45,189 nucleotides of DNA, taken from positions 1 through 45,189 of the forward strand of contig CABYSN010000004.1 of the NCBI GenBank assembly GCA_902521645.1, given 5' to 3'. The position numbers were made by a program, and so were the translations under genes. How positions within the stretch are numbered: position 1 is the stretch's first letter; every line of letters starts with the position of its first letter. The notes under the pieces are model-generated. The model made no database searches. It saw only the letters and a program-made list of their open reading frames with translations, and had not been told where the DNA came from. Source of the stretch: Planctomycetota bacterium. Lineage in GTDB: Bacteria; Planctomycetota; Phycisphaerae; Phycisphaerales; SM1A02. This document shows, piece by piece, positions 31,108 through 45,189 of the stretch.

Positions 31108-31590
31108 ATGATTCGAAAACGCATTGTGAAAATCGCAGGACCTTCGTTGCTGCTTCTCGGCTCCGTGATGCTCTTCGGTGCGATGCGCGATCATGTCGCG
31201 ACGTCAGCTGCAGACGCGAGTCCTTCCCATGAGCAATCCGCCGGAGATCTCCCTGAAATCGGGCAGGTTTCCAAGGGGCCCTTGTTCAATCGAAGCGCGA
31301 ATGAACAACGTGCCACACAGACCCGGATCCTCGAACAGATACTCGACGAGCTCCGTGCCACGCGTCAGCTTCTGGCGAATGGGAACGCCCGTGTCAGGGT
31401 TGAATCGGTCGCGATCGATTACGACCGACTGAGCGAGTTGATCCAGGGTGTTCATTCGTCCGGTGGTGGTGCGGCAGATGCTACGATCCAGGAGGAAGCG
31501 GAAGCGACACCCGCACCAGCAGGGTCCGGAAGCGGATCGATCAGGCGCATCAGCTCTGCAGGATCAGATCAAGTGAACACGGCCCGATGA
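31108..31590 (+). CDS. Hypothetical single-TM protein of the pilus/secretion locus
   Basis: MIRKRIVKIAGPSLLLLGSVMLFGA; ATGA overlap with the next gene. Confidence 0.72.
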   Translation: MIRKRIVKIAGPSLLLLGSVMLFGAMRDHVATSAADASPSHEQSAGDLPEIGQVSKGPLFNRSANEQRATQTRILEQILDELRATRQLLANGNARVRVESVAIDYDRLSELIQGVHSSGGGAADATIQEEAEATPAPAGSGSGSIRRISSAGSDQVNTAR

Positions 31591-32186
31591 GGCTCCGATC
31601 GAAGTCACACCGGAATCATTCCGGCTACACCCTGGTCGAGATGCTGGTCGGCATAGGCATTCTGAGCATCGCCGGAATGCTTCTCATTCCGAATCTCATC
31701 GATCGGGAGACCTTCGCGATTCAAGCCGCTGCCCGATCGATCGTCTCCGACATCGTGTTCGCTCAATCCGATGCGCTGGCGAATCAGGAGTATCGACGAT
31801 TCCAGTTCATCGAGACTCCCGAGGGAGAGAGCGGCTACCTCGGTTACTGCGTGGTCAGAGTCTCACCCGAATCCTTTTCCTATCCGTACGATCCCGTGTC
31901 GGCCGACTATGTCTCTGATCCTCTCGGTACCACCGGCAATGACGGACACTACATCATCGACTTCTCTTCAGACGATCGATTCGACGGCGTTTTGATCGAA
32001 TCCGTCGATCTCGATTCCGGACTCGACTACACGACCTTCGACGAATACGGAGGTTCGGTGTCCTCCAGTGGCGGGGTGCCCGGGACCGGTGGGACGATCG
32101 ATCTGGTGTGCCAGGGAAGTCGTTACAGAGTGACCGTATCGGCATTCACGGCCAAGACAACGGTCGAAGTTCTTTCGACTCCCTGA
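31587..32186 (+). CDS. Pseudopilin, GspH-like
   Basis: HSG|YTLVEMLVGIGILSIAGMLLIPNLI prepilin motif with beta-rich C-terminal region. Confidence 0.83.
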   Translation: MRLRSKSHRNHSGYTLVEMLVGIGILSIAGMLLIPNLIDRETFAIQAAARSIVSDIVFAQSDALANQEYRRFQFIETPEGESGYLGYCVVRVSPESFSYPYDPVSADYVSDPLGTTGNDGHYIIDFSSDDRFDGVLIESVDLDSGLDYTTFDEYGGSVSSSGGVPGTGGTIDLVCQGSRYRVTVSAFTAKTTVEVLSTP

Positions 32187-32290: not shown

Positions 32291-32320
32291 GTGTCACCGA
32301 TTCTTGATATCGGTCGACAC
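32291..32320 (+). promoter_or_regulatory. RNA hairpin just upstream of the pilM-like gene
   Basis: GTGTC-ACCGAT-tcttgat-ATCGGT-c/g-GACAC, one-base bulge, ends 13 nt before ATG 32334. Confidence 0.4.
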
Positions 32321-32333
32321 CAGGGAGTCATCA

Positions 32334-33458
32334 ATGAGGTCCGGTATCTCACTGTCAATCCTCGCGAGGCGAACGCCCATCGGAATCGATGTGGGCGATG
32401 ATGCCGTTCGTGCGATCCAATTGGATTCAAGGACTTCCGAGATCAAGGCCGCGGCGATGTTTCCGCTTCCCGAATCCGATGCTCGTGACACCCACCTGTA
32501 TTCCGGACAGCTGCGCAAGTCCCTGCGACGATCAGGTTTCACGGGCTCGCGATGCGTCATCGGCGCCCCTCGAGAGCATGTCCACGTTCATCCCATCAGA
32601 GTCCCGCACATGTCCTCGAAGGAGCTGCAGGAGTCCCTGGCCTGGGAGGCGTCCGAACGTTTTTCCATTCCCCGTGATTCAGTGCAGGTCGACGGTGTGA
32701 TGACCGGAGCGCGAGCTCCTGGTGTCGATGATGACCGTGCGGAAGTGGTTCTCTTCGCGCTTGACGAGCGAAACATCGTCTCCTGGCTCGATCTGCTCAT
32801 GGAATCCGGTCTTTCCCCCTTGTGTCTCGAGCCAGGTTTCTGTGGTGTCGCCCGTGCCCACAGTCTGCACTGTCGCCGGGAACAGGACCGAGATCGAGTT
32901 CGCGTGGTTCTGGATTTCTCCGCTCGAGGGACCACCCTGATCTATCTTCGTGGTGATCGAATCGGATTCTGCAAGACATTCGACATCGGTGGTGAGTTGC
33001 TCGATTGCGCCACTTCCGAGTCGCTGGGCATGGATCTCGTGAGTGCTGCTGCGCTTCGACGTGATCGCCTCATGGCCTCCAGCAGAAGCCATTCCATGGA
33101 TGTTTCGGCTCAATCCGGTGCTTCTGATGCCGTCGCTCAGATTCTCCACCGCCTCGTCGAGGATGTGGCTCTTTGTCTTCGTCACTGTGCCGTCGCTTTT
33201 CGTGGTGCCCGTCCCGAATGCATCGTGCTCTCCGGACGGGAGTCTCTCGAACCTCGATTCTGCGAGATGCTTGAATCTGGAACCGGGATCCCCGTCACGC
33301 TTGATGACGAGAAGAGAACGATCGATTCCATCGGTCAGGCTCTCAGAAAGAACGGCATTCGTTCCGAATCGGCCTCGGCCTGGTCCGCTGCCTACGGCCT
33401 GGCATCACGTCCGCTCCGAAGCGGACGTGCCTCGAACAAGTCGGGGAGGGCGGCATGA
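32334..33458 (+). CDS. PilM-like actin-fold pilus assembly protein
   Basis: RTPIGIDVGDDAVRAIQLD; GFCGVARAHSLH; VVLDFSARGTTLIYLRGDRIGFCKTFDIGGELL. Confidence 0.8.
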   Translation: MRSGISLSILARRTPIGIDVGDDAVRAIQLDSRTSEIKAAAMFPLPESDARDTHLYSGQLRKSLRRSGFTGSRCVIGAPREHVHVHPIRVPHMSSKELQESLAWEASERFSIPRDSVQVDGVMTGARAPGVDDDRAEVVLFALDERNIVSWLDLLMESGLSPLCLEPGFCGVARAHSLHCRREQDRDRVRVVLDFSARGTTLIYLRGDRIGFCKTFDIGGELLDCATSESLGMDLVSAAALRRDRLMASSRSHSMDVSAQSGASDAVAQILHRLVEDVALCLRHCAVAFRGARPECIVLSGRESLEPRFCEMLESGTGIPVTLDDEKRTIDSIGQALRKNGIRSESASAWSAAYGLASRPLRSGRASNKSGRAA

Positions 33459-34078
33459 ATCAGGGACGTCTCGATCTTCTTCCACCGATGTATGGCGCCC
33501 GGGCCCGCATGCGGCTCGTCAATCGCAGAATCATCATCTGCGGTCTCGGCATGACCATCCTGCTGGTCGGTCTGGTGCTCCATGCCCGGATGGCCCGATC
33601 CTCGTCCGAAACCCTCCTGGTCCTGGCTCAGGAACAGGCGGAGAAGGTTCTCGTGGCGGAACGTCTCGAGGCGCGTTTGATCGAGGAGCTCGAGCTCAGT
33701 CGTCGCAGAATCGAATCCTGGCGGAAGATCGCACTTCCGATTCCCGTGGGTTCACTGCTCGTGACGATGGCGAACGTCGTGCCTGATTCCATCGTGCTCG
33801 AGGAATTGCACATCGACATGACCGGGATTCGACAGGGATATCGACGCGAGAGCTCTGTGGATCGGCGACTCATCGCCCGGATCGAGGGATTCGCACCAGA
33901 CGAACAGACGGTCCGACGTCTCGTTGAAACGCTGCGTGAACGGCATCCTTTCGAGGAGGTCAGGAGAGGTTTCACGGCTCTTCATGAGGAGAACGACCTC
34001 ATCCGGACCAAATTCTCGCTTGGGTTTGAAATCGACATGGAAACACCTTCATTCGTTGTCACAGGAGAAGAGAGATGA
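33455..34078 (+). CDS. PilN/GspL-like inner membrane protein
   Basis: Short N-term, one TM, coiled coil, ferredoxin-like C-term (VPDSIVLEELHID); ATGA overlaps both sides. Confidence 0.7.
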   Translation: MNQGRLDLLPPMYGARARMRLVNRRIIICGLGMTILLVGLVLHARMARSSSETLLVLAQEQAEKVLVAERLEARLIEELELSRRRIESWRKIALPIPVGSLLVTMANVVPDSIVLEELHIDMTGIRQGYRRESSVDRRLIARIEGFAPDEQTVRRLVETLRERHPFEEVRRGFTALHEENDLIRTKFSLGFEIDMETPSFVVTGEER

Positions 34079-34659
34079 AGAACGAAATCAGTGAGATCGA
34101 TCGTGATATCCGGCGTCGTGTCCAGTTTTCAGCCCTGATCATGGCGGCGGCAGCCGCAGCGGCATTCTTTCTGATCATTCATCCCGAGCACAGCCGTGCA
34201 TCGATGGCGAACGTCGAGGTTGATCGCCTGGAGCATGAAAGCGGTTCCATGGTCGCCACCGAATCGATGCTTCAGGAACTGAAGATCGAGCGTTCGCATC
34301 GCCTCGCCATCGAGCGCGACCAGCTCGAGATGATTCCCGTAGATGCCAGTGAATCCAGGCTGACCGATGCGCTTGCATTGAAAGTGGACGATGGAGCCGC
34401 CACATCATGGTCGGTCCGTCTTCTGCCCGTCGAGAAGATCGATGTTCCTGACGAGACCCGGGATTTCAAGAGTCTTCCCATGGCGGTTGAGATGAGCGGT
34501 CGTTTCGCTGCCGTGCTTGAAGCACTGCAGCGGGTGGAATCATCCGACCGACTGGTTCGGCTTCGTTCGCTTCGCGTCACACGTTCCCGAAGTGATTCTG
34601 AAATGGTCGAAGCGAACTTCGAGCTGGACACAGTCTTCGCGACGGAGGTGACCGAATGA
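34075..34659 (+). CDS. PilO/GspM-like inner membrane protein
   Basis: One N-terminal TM, coiled coil, position after PilN-like gene. Confidence 0.62.
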   Translation: MKNEISEIDRDIRRRVQFSALIMAAAAAAAFFLIIHPEHSRASMANVEVDRLEHESGSMVATESMLQELKIERSHRLAIERDQLEMIPVDASESRLTDALALKVDDGAATSWSVRLLPVEKIDVPDETRDFKSLPMAVEMSGRFAAVLEALQRVESSDRLVRLRSLRVTRSRSDSEMVEANFELDTVFATEVTE

Positions 34660-35324
34660 GCCATTTTCATTCTGAAAAAGACTCGTACGAAGCCGATGCC
34701 CGGTGGGGGATCCCTGCCTTTCTCGAACGGATTCGTCTGAGACTCGGCGCCTCACATCGCCAGTTCATGGTGTTCGGGCTACTCGTCCTCACCGGTGGAG
34801 TGATGATGGCCAGACCGGCGGGCATGCTTCTATGGCATCGACTTCGCATCATCTCCGGCATGCCACGCACCGCCATCGCCGACCAGGATCCCGAGATCGT
34901 CGCGGCACGCACGAGCCCCATGTTCGAAACCGTCTCGGAAGGACGCTCGATTCGACTGGATGTCTCGCTGGTCCGAGATCCCTTCGAGAGCCCGATCTTT
35001 CAATCGGTTCAGATCGCAACGGCGACCACAGGAGAATCGGAGGACCCTTCCGTCTCCAGTCCGATCGTGAGCCATGAACAGTCCAGATTGGTCGGCGCGC
35101 TCTCGAGCATTCGACTCACTGGAACTGCAAAGGGGCTTGGAACGGCGCTCATCAATGGTTCCGTCAGGTCGGTCGGGTCTCGATTCGAGGTCTCCGAGTA
35201 CACCTTTCAGTTGACCACCGTCGATGCCGGATCGATCCAGCTTGAAGTGGTTGAAAACCCTCTTTTCAAGGGGTGGCGTTGCATCGTGGGTCGAGAAGGG
35301 GCCACCTTACTTCACTCCGAGTGA
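34656..35324 (+). CDS. PilP/GspC-like protein
   Basis: One TM; RDPFESPIF...RLTGTAKGLGTALINGSVRSVGSRFEVSEYTFQLTTVDAGSIQLEV resembles PilP/GspC HR layout. Confidence 0.62.
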   Translation: MSHFHSEKDSYEADARWGIPAFLERIRLRLGASHRQFMVFGLLVLTGGVMMARPAGMLLWHRLRIISGMPRTAIADQDPEIVAARTSPMFETVSEGRSIRLDVSLVRDPFESPIFQSVQIATATTGESEDPSVSSPIVSHEQSRLVGALSSIRLTGTAKGLGTALINGSVRSVGSRFEVSEYTFQLTTVDAGSIQLEVVENPLFKGWRCIVGREGATLLHSE

Positions 35325-35352
35325 CGCACCTTCGTTATCCGGACCCTGACTG

Positions 35353-35376
35353 AACTGCGGGACTCGCAGTTTTTTT
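35353..35376 (+). terminator. Rho-independent terminator after the PilP-like gene
   Basis: AACTGCG-GGACT-CGCAGTT followed by a T run. Confidence 0.8.
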
Positions 35377-35544
35377 CGGTGATTTCACCTCAACGTGGTG
35401 GTTTGGGCAAAGTCGGGGGGATGCAGGGCCGAAAAGTGATTACCGGCGTCGGGCGCCGGTAACCGCCACGTAGGGCACGGCGGTGCACGGGCCGTCTTAC
35501 TCCAGGGCTCAGTGAATACCTCAGGCAACGAGGAGCGCCAATCG
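35377..35544 (+). promoter_or_regulatory. Structured 5' leader of the secretin gene (unassigned)
   Basis: Hairpin TTACCGGCG-TCGGG-CGCCGGTAA at 35440-35462; further complementarity CCGCC/GGCGG and GCAC/GTGC; between a terminator and the secretin start. Confidence 0.4.
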
Positions 35545-37629
35545 ATGACGAATCAACTCTCATGCACTTCCAGAATGACTCCACTTCGCGTTCTCATCGC
35601 GATGTCATGTCTGTTCATGACGCCCATGGCTTTCGGGCAATCTGGTGATGGGGGCCCTGACGGACAGGTTCCGACTGAAAAGAAGTCCGGGGGCGAGGAA
35701 GTCATCGATGAATTCGGTACCTTCGAGATCGCAGTGGAGGACGTCCCCCTTCCGCAGGTCCTCAACATGCTCGCGATCCAGAGCCGAAGGAACATCATCA
35801 CCAGCAAGAGAGTCGGAAGTGTCTCGGTGACCGCGAACCTCTTCGATGTCACATTCTACGAAGCACTCGAGAGCATTCTTCACATCGCGAGTCTCTGCTA
35901 CGACGAGCAGGGGAATTTCATCTACGTGATGACCTGCGAGGAGAAGATGCAGCGTGAGAATGCGAACCGTGTCATGGAGGACAGGGTCTTCTATCTCGAT
36001 CACATCTCGCCGATCGACGCGGAGGCGTTGGCGAAGCCGCTTCTTTCGGACAATGGGACCATGTCCCGTCTCGGAGAGATCCAGATGGGATTCGCTCCCG
36101 GCAAGACGGATGCAGGTGGTGATTCATGGGCGCACGAACCGGTGCTCGTGGTTCGCGACTATCAGGAGAATCTCAAGGCCGTGGAGTCACTGCTGGACGA
36201 CGTGGACACTCCGCCCAAGCAGGTCATGGTCGAATCGACGATTCTCGTCACCGAAGCAAGCGGTGATTACGCCTGGGGCATGGACGTGAGTGTGCTTCTG
36301 AAGGGTTCGTTCACCGATCTGATCAATCCGTTGAATCCGGTGAGCTGGCTTCAGAATCAGAACAACCCGACCCCGGGGGGCACAGTGCCAACCTCCAATG
36401 ATCTGGCGATCCAGTCGACCGTCGGTGCGACCACCGAACGCGGTGGTTTCAAGCTCGGAGTTCTCAACGAGAACGTCGGCGTCTTCATGCGTCTTCTTGA
36501 TGAGGTCTCCGACACCATGATTCTCGCACGCCCGAAGATTCTGGCGTTGAACAGACAGAGGGCTCAGGTCCTGGTCGGCGAACGAGTCGCCTATCTGTCG
36601 ACCACTCAGACGGAAACGGCTTCCACCCAGTCCGTTCAGTATCTCGACACGGGCATCAATCTTATTCTTCGTCCCTTCATCAGTCGTGACGGTTCGATCC
36701 GTCTCGAGCTCTTTCCGAGTGTGAGTGAGTACACGATTCGAAAGATCGGCAACCCTCTCAGCGCCGGATACACAGAAGTTCCGGATGAATCAACGCATGA
36801 AATCACCACCAATGTCCGTGTCCGTGATGGTGAGACGATCGTCCTCGGCGGTCTCTTCAAGGACAAGGCGATCACCAGCAGAAGAAGCGTTCCCGGTCTC
36901 GGTGACGTTCCACTCGTTGGCGCCGCTTTTCAGGGACAGGACGACGAAGTCACTCGCCAGGAGATCATCTTTCTTGTGACCCCGACGGTCATCAAGGAAG
37001 AGGTCATGACCGCCGCTTCCGACGAAGCCGACAACCTGGTCCGAAACGTGCAGGTCGGCGTGCGAGAGGGTCTTCTTCCCTGGTCGCGCGAGAAGATCGC
37101 CGCGAATCTGAATCACGATGCTCACGTGGCACTTGGTGACGGCGAGACCGATCGTGCGATTTCGTACATCAACAGATCCCTTCGCAATGATCCCAATCAG
37201 CCCGAAATGGTCGACATGCGCAGTCAGCTTCTTGGTGAAAGATCCATCTACAGCGAAAGCGGAGACGTCCTGACCAACATCTTCGATCGGATGATTCGAA
37301 AGTCACTCGATTCGACGGACGACGAGGAGTCACTGCCGCACTCCGACCCGCTCTCATTCGTGATGCCCCGGGGCGAACACTCCGATTCCACGCTGTTTGA
37401 AGCATCGCTCGAGGCATCACTCGCCGAGGAGTCGTTCGTCAACGCCCGGACTGATTCCTCGAATGACCCGGAATCTCAATCGCTTGACGGAGAGGTCGCG
37501 GATTATCCCGGCATCTTCAATCTGTTCACCGAGACCCGATATCGAACCAAGCTCACTGATTGGTGGGTGTCGCTCGTCGCGGCTGACGCTGCAACTCAGA
37601 CTGAAATGGCCACCGCCGAAGTCGAATGA
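35545..37629 (+). CDS. Secretin (GspD/PilQ-like) with long C-terminal extension
   Basis: FEIAVEDVPLPQVLNMLAIQSRRNII; KQVMVESTILVTEAS; VPGLGDVPLVGAAFQGQDDEVTRQEIIFLVTPTVI. AGGAG upstream of ATG 35545. Confidence 0.92.
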   Translation: MTNQLSCTSRMTPLRVLIAMSCLFMTPMAFGQSGDGGPDGQVPTEKKSGGEEVIDEFGTFEIAVEDVPLPQVLNMLAIQSRRNIITSKRVGSVSVTANLFDVTFYEALESILHIASLCYDEQGNFIYVMTCEEKMQRENANRVMEDRVFYLDHISPIDAEALAKPLLSDNGTMSRLGEIQMGFAPGKTDAGGDSWAHEPVLVVRDYQENLKAVESLLDDVDTPPKQVMVESTILVTEASGDYAWGMDVSVLLKGSFTDLINPLNPVSWLQNQNNPTPGGTVPTSNDLAIQSTVGATTERGGFKLGVLNENVGVFMRLLDEVSDTMILARPKILALNRQRAQVLVGERVAYLSTTQTETASTQSVQYLDTGINLILRPFISRDGSIRLELFPSVSEYTIRKIGNPLSAGYTEVPDESTHEITTNVRVRDGETIVLGGLFKDKAITSRRSVPGLGDVPLVGAAFQGQDDEVTRQEIIFLVTPTVIKEEVMTAASDEADNLVRNVQVGVREGLLPWSREKIAANLNHDAHVALGDGETDRAISYINRSLRNDPNQPEMVDMRSQLLGERSIYSESGDVLTNIFDRMIRKSLDSTDDEESLPHSDPLSFVMPRGEHSDSTLFEASLEASLAEESFVNARTDSSNDPESQSLDGEVADYPGIFNLFTETRYRTKLTDWWVSLVAADAATQTEMATAEVE

Positions 37630-37658
37630 TCCGAGCATCCACTCGTACCACCTGGAGA

Positions 37659-38900
37659 ATGAACGTGACCTCAATGAAGTACATCATCATGACACTTGGA
37701 GCCGTCGGCCTGCTTTCGCTCGCCGCCTGTTCCACGACCCCCGGCGCGAATGGTGTCAAGAATCGAATCGAATCCCAGAAGCGGGTCGCAGGACATGCAG
37801 CTCGGCTGGAATTGGAGCAGGCCTACCGTTCGTACACCACCGGGATGTTCGATCAGGCGATGAAATACGCTGAACAGGCCCGAATGCGGACTCCACAGGA
37901 TCCTTCGGCCTACATGTTGATGGCCAGGATCTGTCTCGAGCAGGGGCGTCTGGAGTCTTCCGACACCTTGATCGGTGAGGCGCTCAGACTCGACGCCTCC
38001 ATCCCCGACGCTCATTACCTCAGAGGTGTCATCTACCAAAGGTGGAGTCGGGACGAACAGGCTTTGGACGCCTACATGTCCGCCTGGAACGTCGATCCGA
38101 GCAGTGTTCAAAGCGTCCACTATCTGCTTGCCGCCGGTGAAGTGCTCGTCGACATGAAGCGATACAGGATGGCCCGTGAACTGCTCATTCCAAAGCTCGG
38201 TTATTTCGAGAACAACGCCGCGATGCATCACCTCCTGGGGACCATCGCCGTCCTCGAGAAGAATGGCGATCTGGCGATCGAACATCTCGGTCAGGCCTAT
38301 CTGATCGGTGGAGAGGATGAGATCATCCTTGCCGATCTCGCCCGTGCCCAGCTTGATCACGAAGAATACCGTGCGTGTCTCCGCAATCTCGACACGCTCG
38401 AGAACATGTTCGACGAATCCGTTCCAGGCTGGCTCTACGAGTTGCGTGCACGTTGCTACAAGGCGATGGGATCTCCTCGTGAAGCGCGAAGTTCCTATGT
38501 CCAGTTGCTCAGGATCGAGCCGGAAAACGTGGATGCCTGGATCGAGTACGGCGACATGGCGCATCAGATCGGTGATTACGGCCGTCTTGAAACCTGTGGT
38601 GCCCGTCTGATTTCGATCGCGCCCGATCGTTTCGAAGGCTACTTCTACAAGGGAATCGTCTATCTCGAAGCGGGCAAGCTTGATGCGGCGAAAGTCTGGT
38701 TCACGAAGGCCAGGCAGGTCGCTCCCGCGGATGAATCGATCCCGTCGCTTGCCGTCGCCCATGTCGAGATGATCCGTGGTGACAGGTTGGCCGCTCGTGA
38801 TGCCTTCAAGGACGTGCTCGATCGCTCTCCTGATGATCCCAGGACGCGCTCCTACGTCGAGACCATCGCGACAGGTTCACTCGACTTCATTCCTGATTGA
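37659..38900 (+). CDS. TPR-repeat lipoprotein
   Basis: Lipobox LSLAACSTT; multiple TPR units. Start could be 37626 or 37674. Confidence 0.85.
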   Translation: MNVTSMKYIIMTLGAVGLLSLAACSTTPGANGVKNRIESQKRVAGHAARLELEQAYRSYTTGMFDQAMKYAEQARMRTPQDPSAYMLMARICLEQGRLESSDTLIGEALRLDASIPDAHYLRGVIYQRWSRDEQALDAYMSAWNVDPSSVQSVHYLLAAGEVLVDMKRYRMARELLIPKLGYFENNAAMHHLLGTIAVLEKNGDLAIEHLGQAYLIGGEDEIILADLARAQLDHEEYRACLRNLDTLENMFDESVPGWLYELRARCYKAMGSPREARSSYVQLLRIEPENVDAWIEYGDMAHQIGDYGRLETCGARLISIAPDRFEGYFYKGIVYLEAGKLDAAKVWFTKARQVAPADESIPSLAVAHVEMIRGDRLAARDAFKDVLDRSPDDPRTRSYVETIATGSLDFIPD

Positions 38901-40333
38901 TGCGAAAGGGAAGCAGGGACATGGTGAGGCGATTCGTCTGGGACAATCTGATCTTGATCGCGCTGTCATCGGCGACCGCGACCGCTCTGGGTGGAATCTC
39001 CGTCGCAGTCTTCGGATTCGAACCTGTCGGCATGCTCGGACTCGTCGGTGCTTCGATCATCGGTGCATGCATCATCTATTCTGTCTCTGCGCGGTCATCC
39101 GAAAGAGTCGTTCGTGAAGTCATCGATCAGATGGAATCGATCATCGCCAACGATGAGCAGGTGAATCTCGTCGGGTCCGATCGACTTCTCGATATTCATG
39201 ATCAGATCTCCCGAATGCATGCCCGCAGTCGTGAGGAGATCGCATCCCGACATGTCGCCGTCTCACGGTCGGAAGAGCTTCTCAAGGTCCTGAGCATGCT
39301 CGAGGGTCCGGTCATCGTGTTCGATCGGATGGGTGCCATCCGTCTCACCAACGCCGCATCGGACGCTCTGTTCGGTTGTGCGAAAAGCCCTGTCGGCACC
39401 GGAATCATCCAGATGCTCGATGATTGCCTGCTTCGTGATCAGATACTGGACGGACTTTCCGAAGGCGCCGTCCACGGTCGCATCTTCGACTGCGAGTACG
39501 ACACCCGGCAGGATGACGAGGATTCGCTTCGCCAGTTCAAGGCAAGCATCGTCTCCCTGGCTGATTCGGAGGAGGGTCCCTTCGTCCTTTCGCTTCTCGA
39601 CCTCACCAGAGAGAATCGGGTCTCGAGGATGAAATCGGATTTCGTCTCCAAGGCCAGCCATGAACTGCGGACTCCGATGGCCTCGATTCGCGCGTATCTG
39701 GAGATGCTCGTCGACGACGAGATCATCGATGAAGCGGAGCGGAGGAAGGTTCTGACATCCATGCTCCAGGACACGGATCGTCTGTCCGCACTCGTCGACA
39801 ACATGTTGAACATCAGCAGGATCGAAGCGGGCATGGTCCGTCCAGTCCTCGAAAAGACGGATCTGGGCCTCGTCTCCGAGCGTGTCCTGCACCGCCTGGG
39901 TCCTGCCGCGTCCGAGAAAAACATCTCTCTTTCGACCTCACCATCGACCGTCGATCTCACGGTCGAAGCCGACGCAGCGATGCTCGAACAGGTGGTCGAA
40001 AATCTGGCTTCCAACGCCATCAAATACACGCCTGAAGGTGGGCGTGTCTCCATCGCGATAGATACGGATCCGCTTGAACGCACCGTGGTGGTCTCGATAA
40101 CCGATACCGGACTTGGAATCCCCTCTGACGCCCAGGAAAGGGTGTTTGAGAAGTTTTTCCGAGTCACCAGCTACGAGCGCATGGCCAAAGGCACGGGCCT
40201 GGGACTGAACTTGTGCAGAAACATTGTGGAATCAGTTCATCAAGGCCGCATAGGTGTCGATTCAAGGGTAGGGGAAGGCTCGAGATTCTGGTTCTCGGTC
40301 CCCGTCGGATTCGCAGGCGCGCGCGCCGCATAA
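38900..40333 (+). CDS. Membrane-associated sensor histidine kinase (TM, PAS-like, HisKA, HATPase)
   Basis: SKASHELRTPMASIRAYLEM H-box; NLASNAIKYTPEGG; DTGLGIP; GTGLGLNLC; two N-terminal TMs. Confidence 0.93.
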   Translation: MRKGSRDMVRRFVWDNLILIALSSATATALGGISVAVFGFEPVGMLGLVGASIIGACIIYSVSARSSERVVREVIDQMESIIANDEQVNLVGSDRLLDIHDQISRMHARSREEIASRHVAVSRSEELLKVLSMLEGPVIVFDRMGAIRLTNAASDALFGCAKSPVGTGIIQMLDDCLLRDQILDGLSEGAVHGRIFDCEYDTRQDDEDSLRQFKASIVSLADSEEGPFVLSLLDLTRENRVSRMKSDFVSKASHELRTPMASIRAYLEMLVDDEIIDEAERRKVLTSMLQDTDRLSALVDNMLNISRIEAGMVRPVLEKTDLGLVSERVLHRLGPAASEKNISLSTSPSTVDLTVEADAAMLEQVVENLASNAIKYTPEGGRVSIAIDTDPLERTVVVSITDTGLGIPSDAQERVFEKFFRVTSYERMAKGTGLGLNLCRNIVESVHQGRIGVDSRVGEGSRFWFSVPVGFAGARAA

Positions 40334-40349
40334 GTGATTGGAGGCGACA

Positions 40350-40739
40350 ATGAGTCTGATACTGGTCGCCGATGATGAAAGTCACATCGTTCAGGTTCTT
40401 GCCTTGAAGTTCCGCAATGCGGGACATGATGTCATCGAAGCCAATGATGGTGAAGAGGCATTGGGACTCGCCCGTCAGCACCAGCCCGACGTGCTGGTCA
40501 CCGACATGCAGATGCCGTTCATGAACGGCATGGAGCTCGCAGGTGCGCTTCTCGATGATGCGCGGACGTCTGCTATCCCGGTTCTGGTACTGACCGCTCG
40601 TGGTTGGGCCATGGACGACTGCATCGCGACCCTTTCCAACGTCAAGTCCGTTCAAAGCAAGCCTTTCAGTCCACGTGAGATCCTGTCACTGGTCGAAGGT
40701 CTCATGTCCGACGCCGAACGGGGCAGTGAGTGCACATGA
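40350..40739 (+). CDS. Single-domain response regulator (CheY-like receiver)
   Basis: LILVADDESHIVQVL...DVLVTDMQMPFMNGMEL...VQSKPFSPREIL. Confidence 0.93.
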   Translation: MSLILVADDESHIVQVLALKFRNAGHDVIEANDGEEALGLARQHQPDVLVTDMQMPFMNGMELAGALLDDARTSAIPVLVLTARGWAMDDCIATLSNVKSVQSKPFSPREILSLVEGLMSDAERGSECT

Positions 40740-42376
40740 ATTCATCCACCAGGCATATTCAGATCACCGACAACGACGAGGTGCTTCGTCGCATGGGTGT
40801 GGTTCGTCGGACCATCGCCGAGAATGGCGACGCCGTCTTCGCTCCCGGCGCCGACTGGCTCGAGACCTTTCTTTTCTCCAGCGCGCCCGTGCGAAATCGA
40901 CTCGATGAAATCCTCGAAGGCATGGATTCGAACGGGACGAACGAATCGGCGGTTTCCTGCGAGGTGCTCCCCGGTCTCTGGATGATGGTCTTCTCGCGGA
41001 ATGCGAGACGCGAATCGGCGACGACCGTCGCGATGATGCTCACCATCGAGATCCTGGGAAGCGCCTATTTCGAAATGCTCTGTCAGGCTGCCCAGGTCGA
41101 TCGGATTCTGGTCCGATCCATGCTTGAAGAGATGAATCTGATCCAATCCTGCGAGGTCGAACGGACGGTCGAATTCATCAGTCTTCTCACTCGTAGCGAG
41201 GGAGAAACCGCACAAAGAACGAACATGCTGGCCGACCTCGGCAAGCAGCTTGGTGAAAGCTACGAGGAGATCCATCTCTATCACAGCCTGATCGGATGCA
41301 CCAGCGTCTCGACCAGTCCCATGGCTTTTCTCACAACCGTCGCCGAAGAGCTCAAGACGGTTCTTCCGTTCTCATGGATTGCGATCAGGATCCTCACGGA
41401 TCGGATCAATCTCACCGAGGATTTCGACGGCTTCGTCGTGGGTGGTGATCTTGGTCGACAGCATCCGGTGCTTGCAACCGTGGGAGAGCGAATCGCTCTC
41501 TCGATCGAGGGGCGGACACCGGTGATCATTCGTACGGAATCCGATCCTCGATTCGAGGGGACTTTCGGATTCGCATCCAACGTCGTGGCATGCCCCATCG
41601 CGGGGGATTCCGGCACCATCGGTGTGCTCTTCGCCGGAAACGACGCGCAAAACGACGATGAGGCGTCAAACATCGAAATGAAGCTTCTCGGTGCGGCCTC
41701 CGAACACGTTTCCGTGTTCCTGCGCAACGCCTCCTTGTATGAAAACCTGGATTCGATGTTCCTGGGCACCGTCCAGGCGATGGTCTCCGCGATCGATGCC
41801 AAGGACAGATACACCTGTGGTCATTCACAGCGAGTCGCATGGCTCGCTCGTGAGCTCGCGATCAATTGCGGTCATGACCCGGAGTTCGTCAGGCGGGTCC
41901 ACCTCGCAGGTCTCGTCCATGATGTGGGCAAGATCGGTGTACCCGAAAAGGTTCTCAGCAAGCCGGGCCGTCTTGACGACGAGGAGTTCAAGGCCATTCA
42001 GATGCACCCCGAGATCGGCAGCCGGATCCTCAGGGACATCCCTCAGATGGACGGGATTCTTCCGGCGGTGATGCACCATCATGAACGGTGGGATGGTCGT
42101 GGTTATCCCCACGCCATTTCCGGAGAGGACATCCCACTGATCGCGAGAATCGTCGCGATCGCGGATGCCTTCGATGCGATGAGTTCAACCAGGACATATC
42201 GTTCCGCACGCCCACGTCACGAAGTGCTTGCCGAGATGAATCGCTGTCGCGGGACGCAGTTCGACCCTGATCTGGTCCGTCCTTTTCTCGCAATAGATTT
42301 CACCGAATACGACAAGATGATCCATGGCGCTCTCCGGGCCTTCGAACAGGATCAGGAAGGCCGAGCCGCCGCATGA
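40736..42376 (+). CDS. HD-GYP domain protein with GAF-like sensory region
   Basis: HSQRVAWLARELA, LVHDVGKIGVPEKVL, HPEIGSRIL, HHERWDGRGYP, ADAFDAMSSTRTYR; ATGA overlaps both sides. Confidence 0.93.
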   Translation: MNSSTRHIQITDNDEVLRRMGVVRRTIAENGDAVFAPGADWLETFLFSSAPVRNRLDEILEGMDSNGTNESAVSCEVLPGLWMMVFSRNARRESATTVAMMLTIEILGSAYFEMLCQAAQVDRILVRSMLEEMNLIQSCEVERTVEFISLLTRSEGETAQRTNMLADLGKQLGESYEEIHLYHSLIGCTSVSTSPMAFLTTVAEELKTVLPFSWIAIRILTDRINLTEDFDGFVVGGDLGRQHPVLATVGERIALSIEGRTPVIIRTESDPRFEGTFGFASNVVACPIAGDSGTIGVLFAGNDAQNDDEASNIEMKLLGAASEHVSVFLRNASLYENLDSMFLGTVQAMVSAIDAKDRYTCGHSQRVAWLARELAINCGHDPEFVRRVHLAGLVHDVGKIGVPEKVLSKPGRLDDEEFKAIQMHPEIGSRILRDIPQMDGILPAVMHHHERWDGRGYPHAISGEDIPLIARIVAIADAFDAMSSTRTYRSARPRHEVLAEMNRCRGTQFDPDLVRPFLAIDFTEYDKMIHGALRAFEQDQEGRAAA

Positions 42377-42708
42377 GAATTTCACATGAAGATCATGGTG
42401 CGACCTCGTTGGTGGCACTTGCAGGTGATTTCCTCGAGGAGAGTTCGGAGGTCTTCAAGAAGACCGTCTCCGAACGTTTCGAATCGGGAATCAGGAACAT
42501 CGTGCTCGACATGACCGGAGTCGGCTCGATCGATTCCGTCGGACTCGAATCCCTCCTCTGGGTCAATGATGAATCCACGAGGAATTCCGGAAGGTTCAAG
42601 CTGGTCGGAGTCGTGGACGCGGTTTCCGAAGCCTTGACGGTCACCAGACTCGTCCGTCGTTTCGATCTCGAGGAAAGCGTTGAAAGCGCTGCCCGTTCGC
42701 TCAGGTAA
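42373..42708 (+). CDS. STAS domain protein (anti-anti-sigma-like)
   Basis: IVLDMTGVGSIDSVGLESLLWV STAS signature. Confidence 0.87.
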   Translation: MRISHEDHGATSLVALAGDFLEESSEVFKKTVSERFESGIRNIVLDMTGVGSIDSVGLESLLWVNDESTRNSGRFKLVGVVDAVSEALTVTRLVRRFDLEESVESAARSLR

Positions 42709-42723
42709 GGAGGTCTTGCAATC

Positions 42724-44469
42724 ATGGAAAGCAATCCGACATTCGCATCACGTGTCCGCTCGTTCGATCGATCGATCGCGAGTCCCGTGCCTCTCGGACA
42801 GGTTCTCATCGAACGTGGCCTGGTCACCGACGAAGCCCTCCAGGAAGCTCTGGATGTCCAGAGACAGGATGGTCGCGGAAGACTCATCGGGGAGATCCTG
42901 GTCGAACAGGGGATCGTCGATGAAGCGGCGGTGATGGAGGTCGTCGCCGAGGCCTACGGACTGCCTTTCGTCCGTGGTGTGGCGAGGCTTGCCGATCCGT
43001 CGATCGTGGACTGCATCGCGCGTGAGTTCGTCGAGGAACACGGGGTCCTGCCTCTCTACAGAGTGCGTGGCATGTTGACGGTCGCTGTCGCCGAACCTGC
43101 GAATCTGTATCTGATCGAGGAGATCCGCCGCATCTCCGGTTGTGAAGTCCAGCTCGCGGTCGCGACGAGGGCGGACATAGACGCCTCCATCAAGAGCTAT
43201 CTCCCAACGGCGAGCGTCTTCGTCATCGACGACATCTACGAGGATGTCGCTGAAACCGATTTCAGCGTGATCGAGCGTGAAGCCGCCGAGATATCCGATC
43301 TTCGGGAGGTCTCAGGTCATTCGCCGGTCGTGAAACTCGTCAATTACATGATCTTCACCGCCGTTCAGGAGGGTGCATCCGACATCCATGTCGAACCCGG
43401 CGACCATGAACTCCGAGTCCGCTATCGGATCGACGGGAAGCTTTTCGAGAAACTCGCGCCACCACATCAGATGTCTCCCGCGATCGTGAGCCGCATCAAG
43501 ATCATGGCCGGCCTCGACATCTCCGAAAGACGCCTTCCTCAGGATGGGGACATCCATGTGCGAATGGAAAGCCGACCCATCGATCTGCGTGTCTCCACGA
43601 TGCCCGGTCGATGGGGTGAGAAGGTCGTGATCCGAGTGATCGACGCCCGAAACACGAATGTCGAGCTCGATCGCCTGGGCATGTCCGCCGAAACGCTCGT
43701 TCGCTGGCAGGAAGTCATCGAGAACCCCAATGGTGTGATTCTCGTCACTGGTCCCACCGGATCGGGGAAGTCGACAACGCTCTATTCCGTCCTGTCTCGC
43801 CTTGATCGGACGGAGCGAAATGTCTCGACCATCGAGGATCCTGTCGAATCGACTCTTGAGGGCGTCAATCAGTTCCAGGTGAATGAAAAAGCGGGTTTCG
43901 GATTCGCCGATGCGCTCAGATCGATGCTCCGCCAGGATCCGGATGTCATGATGGTCGGCGAGATTCGTGATGTCGAGACGGCGGCCCTCGCCACTCAGGC
44001 CGCCTTGACCGGGCATCTGGTGTATTCGACGCTGCATACGAACGAGGCGTGCGGCGCGATCACACGCATGATCAATCTGCAGGTGGAACCGTATCTGGTG
44101 GCTGCCACCCTGCGAGGCATCCTCGCTCAGAGGCTCGTTCGAAAGACCTGCCCTCATTGCCGCACCGCCTATCGCCCTGATGACAACATACGAGCCGTTC
44201 TCGGAATGACCGGTGCCGGCGATTCGCTCTGGAGAGGAACCGGCTGTCAGAAATGTCGCGACACCGGATTTTCAGGTCGACTTGGGATCTTCGAACTTCT
44301 GAATCCTGATGAAGCCTTCCTCGATGGGGTCGGCCGATGTGCACCGATTTCGGAATTGAGAACGCATGCCATCGGAGCTGGAATGGTTCCTCTCCGAGAA
44401 GATGGTTTCGCCAAGGCGATCGAAGGTCTGACCACCGTCGAGGAAGTGTTGAATGCCGCTCGCAGTTGA
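42724..44469 (+). CDS. gspE: GspE/PilB family assembly ATPase with MshEN-like N-terminal region
   Basis: Walker A GPTGSGKSTTLYSVL; Asp box/Walker B DPDVMMVGEIRDVETA; CPHC...CQKC; N-term PLGQVLIERGLVTDEALQEALDVQ...RLIGEILVEQGIVDEAAVMEV. Confidence 0.95.
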   Translation: MESNPTFASRVRSFDRSIASPVPLGQVLIERGLVTDEALQEALDVQRQDGRGRLIGEILVEQGIVDEAAVMEVVAEAYGLPFVRGVARLADPSIVDCIAREFVEEHGVLPLYRVRGMLTVAVAEPANLYLIEEIRRISGCEVQLAVATRADIDASIKSYLPTASVFVIDDIYEDVAETDFSVIEREAAEISDLREVSGHSPVVKLVNYMIFTAVQEGASDIHVEPGDHELRVRYRIDGKLFEKLAPPHQMSPAIVSRIKIMAGLDISERRLPQDGDIHVRMESRPIDLRVSTMPGRWGEKVVIRVIDARNTNVELDRLGMSAETLVRWQEVIENPNGVILVTGPTGSGKSTTLYSVLSRLDRTERNVSTIEDPVESTLEGVNQFQVNEKAGFGFADALRSMLRQDPDVMMVGEIRDVETAALATQAALTGHLVYSTLHTNEACGAITRMINLQVEPYLVAATLRGILAQRLVRKTCPHCRTAYRPDDNIRAVLGMTGAGDSLWRGTGCQKCRDTGFSGRLGIFELLNPDEAFLDGVGRCAPISELRTHAIGAGMVPLREDGFAKAIEGLTTVEEVLNAARS

Positions 44470-45189
44470 TACGACATTCGTTCAAGGGCAATCCGCCGCC
44501 GAATCGACGTACGCATGGCGTGCCCGTGATGCGGATGGATCGATCTCCTCCGGAACTCTGAGTGCCGTCTCAGAGAACGAAGTCGCATCCCGACTTCGTT
44601 CAGAAGGGCGGTTCGTCATCTCGATCAGGCAGAGTGCCTCCGGTGAATCGGAACCCGTGATACAGATGGGTCATTCGAGGCGGTTCAATCGCAATGACGT
44701 CATCACCTTCTTCCGTCAGCTTTCGGTGATGTTGTCTGCCGGTGTGTCGATATCGGAATCACTCGATGCGATCGTCCGACAGTCCGCTGACACTCAGAGA
44801 CGTGATTTCATTCTCAAGATCCAATCCGAAGTCGAATCAGGGGAGTCGTTCTCCACCGTTCTCTCCCGACGCGGACGTCAGTTCCCGCTTTCGGTCGTCA
44901 GTCTGATTCGTGCGGCTGAAGCGACCGGTCAGCTCGATGTCATGACACGTCGCGCCGCAGAGCATCTCGAGAAGGACCGTCGCGTCCGCGGGCAGGTGAA
45001 GACTGCCATCACCTACCCAGCTTTCATGGCGGTCGCAGGATTCGGGATCATCGTCGCCTTGCTGGTCCTGGTTCTGCCCCGATTCGCGGCGATCTATGAA
45101 TCTAAATCCGCTCTGCTGCCCGCGCCGACACGTTTCCTTCTGGAGTTTTCAGGTTTTCTGCGATCCGAGTGGTACTGGTATCTTCCGGC
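44453..45189 (+). CDS. gspF: GspF/PilC inner-membrane platform protein, truncated by window end
   Basis: TYAWRARDADGSISSGTLSA, FFRQLSVMLSAGVSISESLDAI, KTAITYPAFMAVAGFGIIVALLVLVLPRF; not in the ORF track because it runs off the end; start overlaps gspE. Confidence 0.9.
   Translation, partial: MPLAVDTTFVQGQSAAESTYAWRARDADGSISSGTLSAVSENEVASRLRSEGRFVISIRQSASGESEPVIQMGHSRRFNRNDVITFFRQLSVMLSAGVSISESLDAIVRQSADTQRRDFILKIQSEVESGESFSTVLSRRGRQFPLSVVSLIRAAEATGQLDVMTRRAAEHLEKDRRVRGQVKTAITYPAFMAVAGFGIIVALLVLVLPRFAAIYESKSALLPAPTRFLLEFSGFLRSEWYWYLP

Follow-up and report, generated by a model that had tools for sequence, protein, structure and literature searches.

The window, by which we mean the whole stretch of 45,189 nucleotides of Planctomycetota DNA that was analyzed, harbors a gene cluster for a secretion or pilus machine, encoded on the forward strand. 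It includes a pseudopilin-like protein with a prepilin N-methylation signal (31587..32186; PF07963), as well as PilM, PilN-like and PilO-like proteins and a small protein in the position of PilP (32304..35324; PF11104, weak PilN/PilO matches and synteny). There follows, on a single strand, the gene order secretin-TPR-HK-RR-HD-GYP-STAS-GspE-GspF, that is, a PilQ/GspD-like secretin (35512..37629; PF00263, E=2.3e-40), a TPR lipoprotein-like protein that may be a pilotin-like partner (37626..38900), a PnpS/PhoR-like sensor histidine kinase (HK; 38897..40333; HisKA and HATPase_c), a stand-alone receiver domain acting as response regulator (RR; 40338..40739; PF00072, E=1.5e-19), a 548-aa HD-GYP protein (40730..42376), a 111-aa STAS protein of the anti-sigma-factor-antagonist type (42373..42708; TIGR00377, 53.8 bits with a cut-off of 53.45; PF01740, E=8e-14), whose Asp-Ser was kept in 21/21 sequences, a 581-aa assembly ATPase (42724..44469) and a GspF/PilC inner-membrane platform protein that runs past the window end (44453..45189; PF00482, E=7.8e-29). 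In line with a preliminary description of this DNA, which had called the HD-GYP gene close to the ATPase gene, the former ends 348 bp upstream of the latter, with one STAS gene between them; the HD-GYP and STAS genes overlap by 4 bp, and the end of the STAS gene lies 15 bp from the ATPase gene. Judging by these overlaps and short gaps, the genes from the secretin on may be co-transcribed. The space that divides the secretin gene from the PilP-position gene holds a terminator-like hairpin with a T run behind it (35352-35372, forward strand), which may be either an operon boundary or an attenuator that separates the PilM-P part; in the promoter and terminator scan, matches were overall no commoner than chance. 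PilT was not seen in the window cluster, where PilM/N/O and a secretin are present, and the machine may be of either the T2SS or the T4P type.

The ATPase is a member of the GspE/PilB family (T2SSE, E=1.4e-130, Pfam). Its scores were 579.8 for TIGR02533 (GspE, cut-off 630) and 561.1 for TIGR02538 (PilB, cut-off 675.7) and, since both lie below the respective equivalog cut-offs, the family name is the safe one. The T2SSE ATPase domain (residues 197-576; 43312..44451) carries the Walker A motif GPTGSGKST and a CxxC...CxxC zinc motif. An MshEN repeat had been proposed for the N-terminus of this protein, where positions 42724-42975 (forward strand) encode residues 1-84, and this was borne out by two profiles that both scored over their curated cut-offs: NF053729 ('cyclic di-GMP-binding domain, MshE-related'; NCBIfam) matched residues 23-76 (E=1.7e-14, 53.4 bits, cut-off 38), and PF05157 (MshEN; Pfam) matched the MshEN_C subdomain at residues 78-162 (42955..43209; E=1.4e-16, 60.7 bits, cut-off 23.1). 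When the PDB was searched by sequence, the N-domains of PilF, PilB, MshE and XpsE were matched. Because solved PilB, PilF and MshE domains match in this way, the likeness is far beyond chance; a chance resemblance of the repeats was also ruled out by the profile E-values together with the structure. The MshEN domain on this ATPase is a true c-di-GMP receptor fold.

The register of the two motifs was derived from an alignment with PilF and PilB and mapped onto MshE numbering, with residue roles as reported (PMC5013675, PMC11731258). Motif I (residues 23-46, PLG...Q, PLGQVLIERGLVTDEALQEALDVQ; 42790..42861) and motif II (residues 54-77, LIG...A, LIGEILVEQGIVDEAAVMEVVAEA; 42883..42954) flank the 7-residue spacer RQDGRGR (42862..42882), compared with 5 residues in MshE and 7 also in Geobacter PilB. 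In motif I, Arg9, Leu10, Gly11, Leu25, Leu29 and Gln32 of MshE correspond to Pro23, Leu24, Gly25, Leu39, Leu43 and Gln46 of the window ATPase; in motif II, Arg38, Leu39, Gly40, Leu54, Leu58 and Gln61 correspond to Leu54, Ile55, Gly56, Val70, Val74 and Ala77; and in MshEN_C, Asp108 corresponds to Glu124. Set against the published motif (R/K/L)LG...LxxxLxxQ, motif I keeps the LG, both leucines and the Gln, with a Pro outside the published R/K/L set at the first position. Motif II does not match it, as L-I-G and the V/V hydrophobics are kept and the Gln is replaced by Ala, which makes the ATPase a member of the MshEN fold family whose binding motif is a variant one. The second Gln is the sole loss when the polar side-chain contacts within the N-subdomain are considered. 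The two tandem units previously pointed out were both recovered, but unit II had been begun at R53, one residue early, so that Arg38 wrongly seemed to be kept, its true equivalent being Leu54. Similarly, the Pro noted in place of Arg in the first unit was confirmed, while the changes of Gln61, Leu54 and Leu58 in the second had gone unmentioned.

An AlphaFold model from 30 orthologues (pLDDT 86) displayed the four-helix and alpha/beta subdomains. In a Foldseek search with the model of this ATPase domain, the top match was 5HTL, i.e., MshE with c-di-GMP (E=6.9e-11, TM 0.76-0.81), followed by c-di-GMP complexes of PilF GSPII-B, including that of the Q218E mutant (9GLG), which is without the equivalent Gln. 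Such a similarity between a modelled fold and c-di-GMP-bound structures is no proof of binding. In MshE, the two Gln contact ribose and phosphate, the guanines are packed against clusters of Leu residues, and their O6/N7 atoms are recognized by the backbone amides of the glycines (PMC5013675). In PilF GSPII-B, the motif arginine is not needed and Leu is favorable at the first motif position; the Q218E variant, changed in the second Gln, binds with a KD of 460 nM and Q190E, changed in the first, with 950 nM, binding being abolished in the double mutant only, and GSPII-C, in which one motif starts with Pro (Pro335), binds c-di-GMP at about 0.3-0.5 micromolar (PMC11731258).

For the conservation analysis, 30 same-family orthologues of 56-92% identity (the window itself excepted) were aligned, as were 80 loci from named genomes, which overlap with the 30 orthologues so that counts are not additive. 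Gly11, Leu29, Gln32, the leucine at Arg38 and Gly40 (Gly25, Leu43, Gln46, Leu54 and Gly56 in window numbering) were invariant in 81/81 aligned family sequences, and so was a Glu at position 57. The position of Gln61 was occupied by Ala (31 sequences), Gly (26), Ser (17), Thr (3), Cys (2) or Glu (2), and by Gln in none of the 81. That of Arg9 was mostly Pro or Gln, that of Asp108 was Glu, and the motif II leucines were Val, Ile or Leu; NF053729 was matched by 30/30 orthologues. The preliminary description had named a loss of the ligand residues in all orthologues as evidence against its claim, and such a loss is half realized, no orthologue having the second-motif Gln. Elsewhere in the window genome, a separate PilB-PilT-PilB-PilC set was found on contig C7 (L167, 2988-9946, reverse strand), in which one PilB carries both MshEN Gln, while the other has Ala in place of the motif I Gln and keeps that of motif II; the latter PilB thus mirrors the window ATPase, a pattern repeated in a second genome (G002, L073). 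In orthologous ATPases from other classes of the phylum (L175-L183), motif I has its Arg, Gln32 is kept and the Gln61 position is mostly Glu.

The catalytic domain of the HD-GYP protein (residues 351-515; 41780..42274; PF13487, E=4.4e-38) carries HDVGK and HHHERWDGRGYP. His365, His397, Asp398, Lys401, His426, His450, His451, Asp479 and Asp482 were invariant in 20 orthologues, in which all bimetal ligands of the HD and HHExxDGxGYP motifs were found, with small changes in the GYP flank. Tyr361 aligns with the extra Glu of the trimetal PmGH, presumably its third-metal ligand, and this replacement would point to a bimetal enzyme. Profiles and the model place a GAF-like part in the middle of the protein, with Pfam GAF found in 9/20 orthologues, whereas the N-terminus may be PAS-like as judged by the secondary structure of an AlphaFold model that is moderate (pLDDT 75, pTM 0.43), which makes this assignment a weak one. 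From its sequence, the protein is a putative c-di-GMP phosphodiesterase that could prefer another cyclic dinucleotide. Its neighborhood with the ATPase proved stronger than had been claimed: the ATPase gene has the HD-GYP gene upstream of it in all same-family orthologues (30/30) and all testable named loci (75/75), the gene order was kept in 20/20 long same-family loci, and in genomes of the same order and class (L168-L174, L182) the HD-GYP gene still adjoins the ATPase gene. A few of the named loci are labelled as lying outside the phylum and are probably mis-binned contigs. In one congener (G013, L160:5000-12600, reverse strand), TPR is followed directly by HD-GYP, and HK, RR, STAS, GspE and GspF are missing there, through either a true loss or an assembly effect.

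Taken together, we give a probability of about one half to the reading in which the asymmetric MshEN domain binds c-di-GMP and the motor is promoted, while the co-encoded HD-GYP protein lowers occupancy and the STAS protein serves as an adaptor. In this mechanism, the ATPase of a T2SS/T4P-like machine would bind the ligand by means of a motif I that is complete save for Arg9 and a motif II that would offer the Leu stack and the backbone amides without the phosphate/ribose Gln. Its affinity, predicted at roughly 0.1 to tens of micromolar, would fall clearly short of that of the best MshEN domains, and binding would favor assembly or activity of the motor, by analogy with MshE and PilF. The HD-GYP protein would hydrolyze c-di-GMP as directed by its PAS/GAF-like part and perhaps by the operon kinase and receiver, whose roles are presumed, whereupon occupancy of the ATPase would fall; the STAS protein may be a switchable adaptor. 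Binding with reduced affinity is the best prediction because PilF minus the equivalent Gln retains a KD of 460 nM and gave a ligand-bound crystal structure. These single-Gln data were obtained with a domain that binds very tightly, and binding by the window ATPase could be too weak to matter. Further points against this reading are the deviations at Arg9, Asp108, the motif II leucines and the spacer, the half-site of relatives in which no HD-GYP gene adjoins the ATPase gene, and the congener that has HD-GYP but not the ATPase at this locus. The position of an MshEN ATPase behind an HD-GYP gene suggests a built-in on/off circuit. It had been proposed as a feedback circuit, a reading that we dropped since no return arm was found, and 'local degradation control' is therefore the better wording.

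A different function for the domain, which we consider doubtful, would be that it has ceased to bind c-di-GMP in vivo and, in an XpsE-like manner, provides structural N1 docking on the PilM/PilN (GspL-like) platform, with the HD-GYP protein as a merely co-expressed global regulator. The loss of Gln61 in 81/81 sequences and the deviations at Arg9, Asp108 and the spacer fit this explanation, and XpsE lost binding via several such changes in its ligand site, with Gly11, Gly40, Leu29 and more gone (PMC5013675). Furthermore, a paralogue from the same genome group (45-48% identical, with similar subdomain divergence) is clearly without the site, as Gln32, Gly40 and Leu29 were each kept in 1/7, so the MshEN fold can dispense with those residues. 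In contrast to XpsE, however, the window family never varies at Leu29, Gln32 or either motif glycine, and PilF tolerates losing the equivalent Gln. The nine ligand columns had a mean entropy of 0.42 bits, compared with 1.75 for the remaining N-subdomain (81 sequences; Mann-Whitney p=6e-5, a comparison of columns and not of independent events because the sequences are related), and they were also more conserved than other hydrophobic positions (p=7e-4, 81 sequences). A total loss of the site as in XpsE was not supported, given that the residues lost in XpsE, the second Gln excepted, are invariant here; their retention, with the second Gln alone missing, would best be explained by reduced-affinity binding.

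It is less probable that the ATPase binds c-di-GMP whereas the HD-GYP protein sets the global and not the local pool, the operon ensuring joint expression only. The c-di-GMP gene set was surveyed in the window genome (assembly 54% complete) and in its four nearest genomes (92-96% complete). Among the cyclases of the window genome, one REC-GGDEF protein carries GGEEF, another GGDEF protein has its motif intact, and an HDOD-GGDEF protein is degenerate; there are two HD-GYPs in the window genome and at most two in the nearest genomes, and neither EAL nor PilZ was found in any of these five assemblies. The intact cyclases and the lack of EAL and PilZ also fit the favored reading. With no EAL and at most two HD-GYPs in near relatives, the HD-GYP protein would dominate total degradation, and the half-site is also present in sister ATPases that have no HD-GYP beside them and in other classes, where no HD-GYP match lies within 1.5 kb. 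This latter distribution likewise rules out a common origin of half-site and HD-GYP linkage, the half-site appearing to be older than, or independent of, the linkage. On the other hand, the strict HD-GYP-STAS-ATPase order, the 4-bp and 15-bp junctions and the near-universal synteny fit physical or stoichiometric coupling, and the two other MshEN ATPases of the genome sit in a different cluster. In the absence of PilZ, the MshEN ATPases were the only recognized c-di-GMP receptors in a tally of protein receptors, from which riboswitches and other receptor types were left out. The second HD-GYP gene adjoins a pseudopilin gene on contig C74 and, in a congener (G051), comes ~5 kb downstream of the ATPase gene, and both HD-GYPs are therefore in or near the secretion cluster. 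In this second GAF-HD-GYP (L164:240-1988 and L161:1107-2870, both reverse strand), an insertion after the GYP motif was observed.

We also weighed, as an unlikely case, whether the ATPase is controlled mainly by HK-RR phosphorylation and STAS partner switching, with nucleotide binding being secondary. In the named Phycisphaerae/Planctomycetota loci, where contigs reach, HK (69/69), RR (74/74) and STAS (74/77) were as conserved as HD-GYP, with values of 55/55 for the secretin and 68/69 for GspF. HK, RR and STAS also extend to other classes of the phylum, in which HK-RR-STAS-ATPase or HK-RR-ATPase was found with no HD-GYP match within the 1.5 kb flank, and a paralogous HK-STAS-ATPase-platform operon without RR or HD-GYP (L071:4408-8323, reverse strand) suggests that the STAS-ATPase pairing recurs. 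Nevertheless, a partner-switch kinase or phosphatase was not recognized in the window operon, and control of this kind leaves the retained ligand residues unexplained. In several of the loci L175-L183, STAS or HK-RR(-STAS) was seen upstream of the ATPase gene. Finally, a different ligand such as 3',3'-cGAMP, which might suit the asymmetric site and be degraded by the HD-GYP protein, is very improbable, for although the nearest solved HD-GYP by sequence is the V. cholerae cGAMP phosphodiesterase V-cGAP3, M. xanthus PmxA prefers cGAMP (PMC8844925) and MshE binds it weakly (KD 3.3e-4 M; PMC5013675), the backbone of each motif recognizes guanine O6/N7, both glycines are kept, and the c-di-GMP enzyme PmGH ranked first in the structure search with the HD-GYP model.

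The arrangement itself is real and widely conserved, and is a variant within the known MshEN/HD-GYP repertoire; what is unexpected is the consistent one-glutamine site and its near-fixed linkage to a putative phosphodiesterase and a STAS protein. No description of c-di-GMP control of Planctomycetota secretion or pilus machines was found in the open-access papers searched, and those on Phycisphaerae/Planctomycetes T2SS, T4P or HD-GYP gave no account of the window operon. Going beyond the favored reading, we tentatively propose that the one-glutamine MshEN might be a tuned, conserved gate for c-di-GMP of lower affinity, rather than a product of decay, within a phylum-level HK-RR-(HD-GYP)-STAS-ATPase module. 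If such a module is true, the motor would be encoded together with its controllers, namely a two-component pair, a phosphodiesterase and a switch of the STAS type, in genomes whose few MshEN ATPases and one or two HD-GYPs, with neither PilZ nor EAL in near relatives, would make a compact test system for local c-di-GMP signaling. It would also mean that MshEN is tunable by dropping one of its two ligand Gln, and that motif searches asking for both wrongly discard such domains.

Among known systems, MshE (V. cholerae, 5HTL) resembles the window ATPase in its two 24-residue motifs, in a four-helix subdomain that leads into an alpha/beta one, in its place on a T2SS/T4P ATPase, and in the glycines, the hydrophobic clamp and Gln32, and differs from it by Arg9, Arg38, Gln61 and Asp108, here Pro, Leu, Ala and Glu. 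T. thermophilus PilF GSPII-B (8PDK) requires no motif arginine and its motif II also opens with Leu, and its mutant without the motif II Gln (9GLG), the residue also missing from the window ATPase, still binds c-di-GMP; by contrast, its wild type has both Gln, with a KD of 6 nM, and PilF contains three tandem GSPII domains in one protein. The N-domain of XpsE (Xanthomonas, 2D27) shares the fold and the loss of the motif II Gln, but it is non-binding and lacks Gly11, Gly40 and Leu29, all of them invariant in the window family. With regard to the enzyme, PmGH (4MCW), PA4781 and V-cGAP3 have in common with the window HD-GYP protein the HD motif, the additional His metal ligands and the HHE and GYP motifs, from which the latter is set apart by its PAS-like/GAF-like N-terminus and its fixed linkage to an MshEN ATPase.
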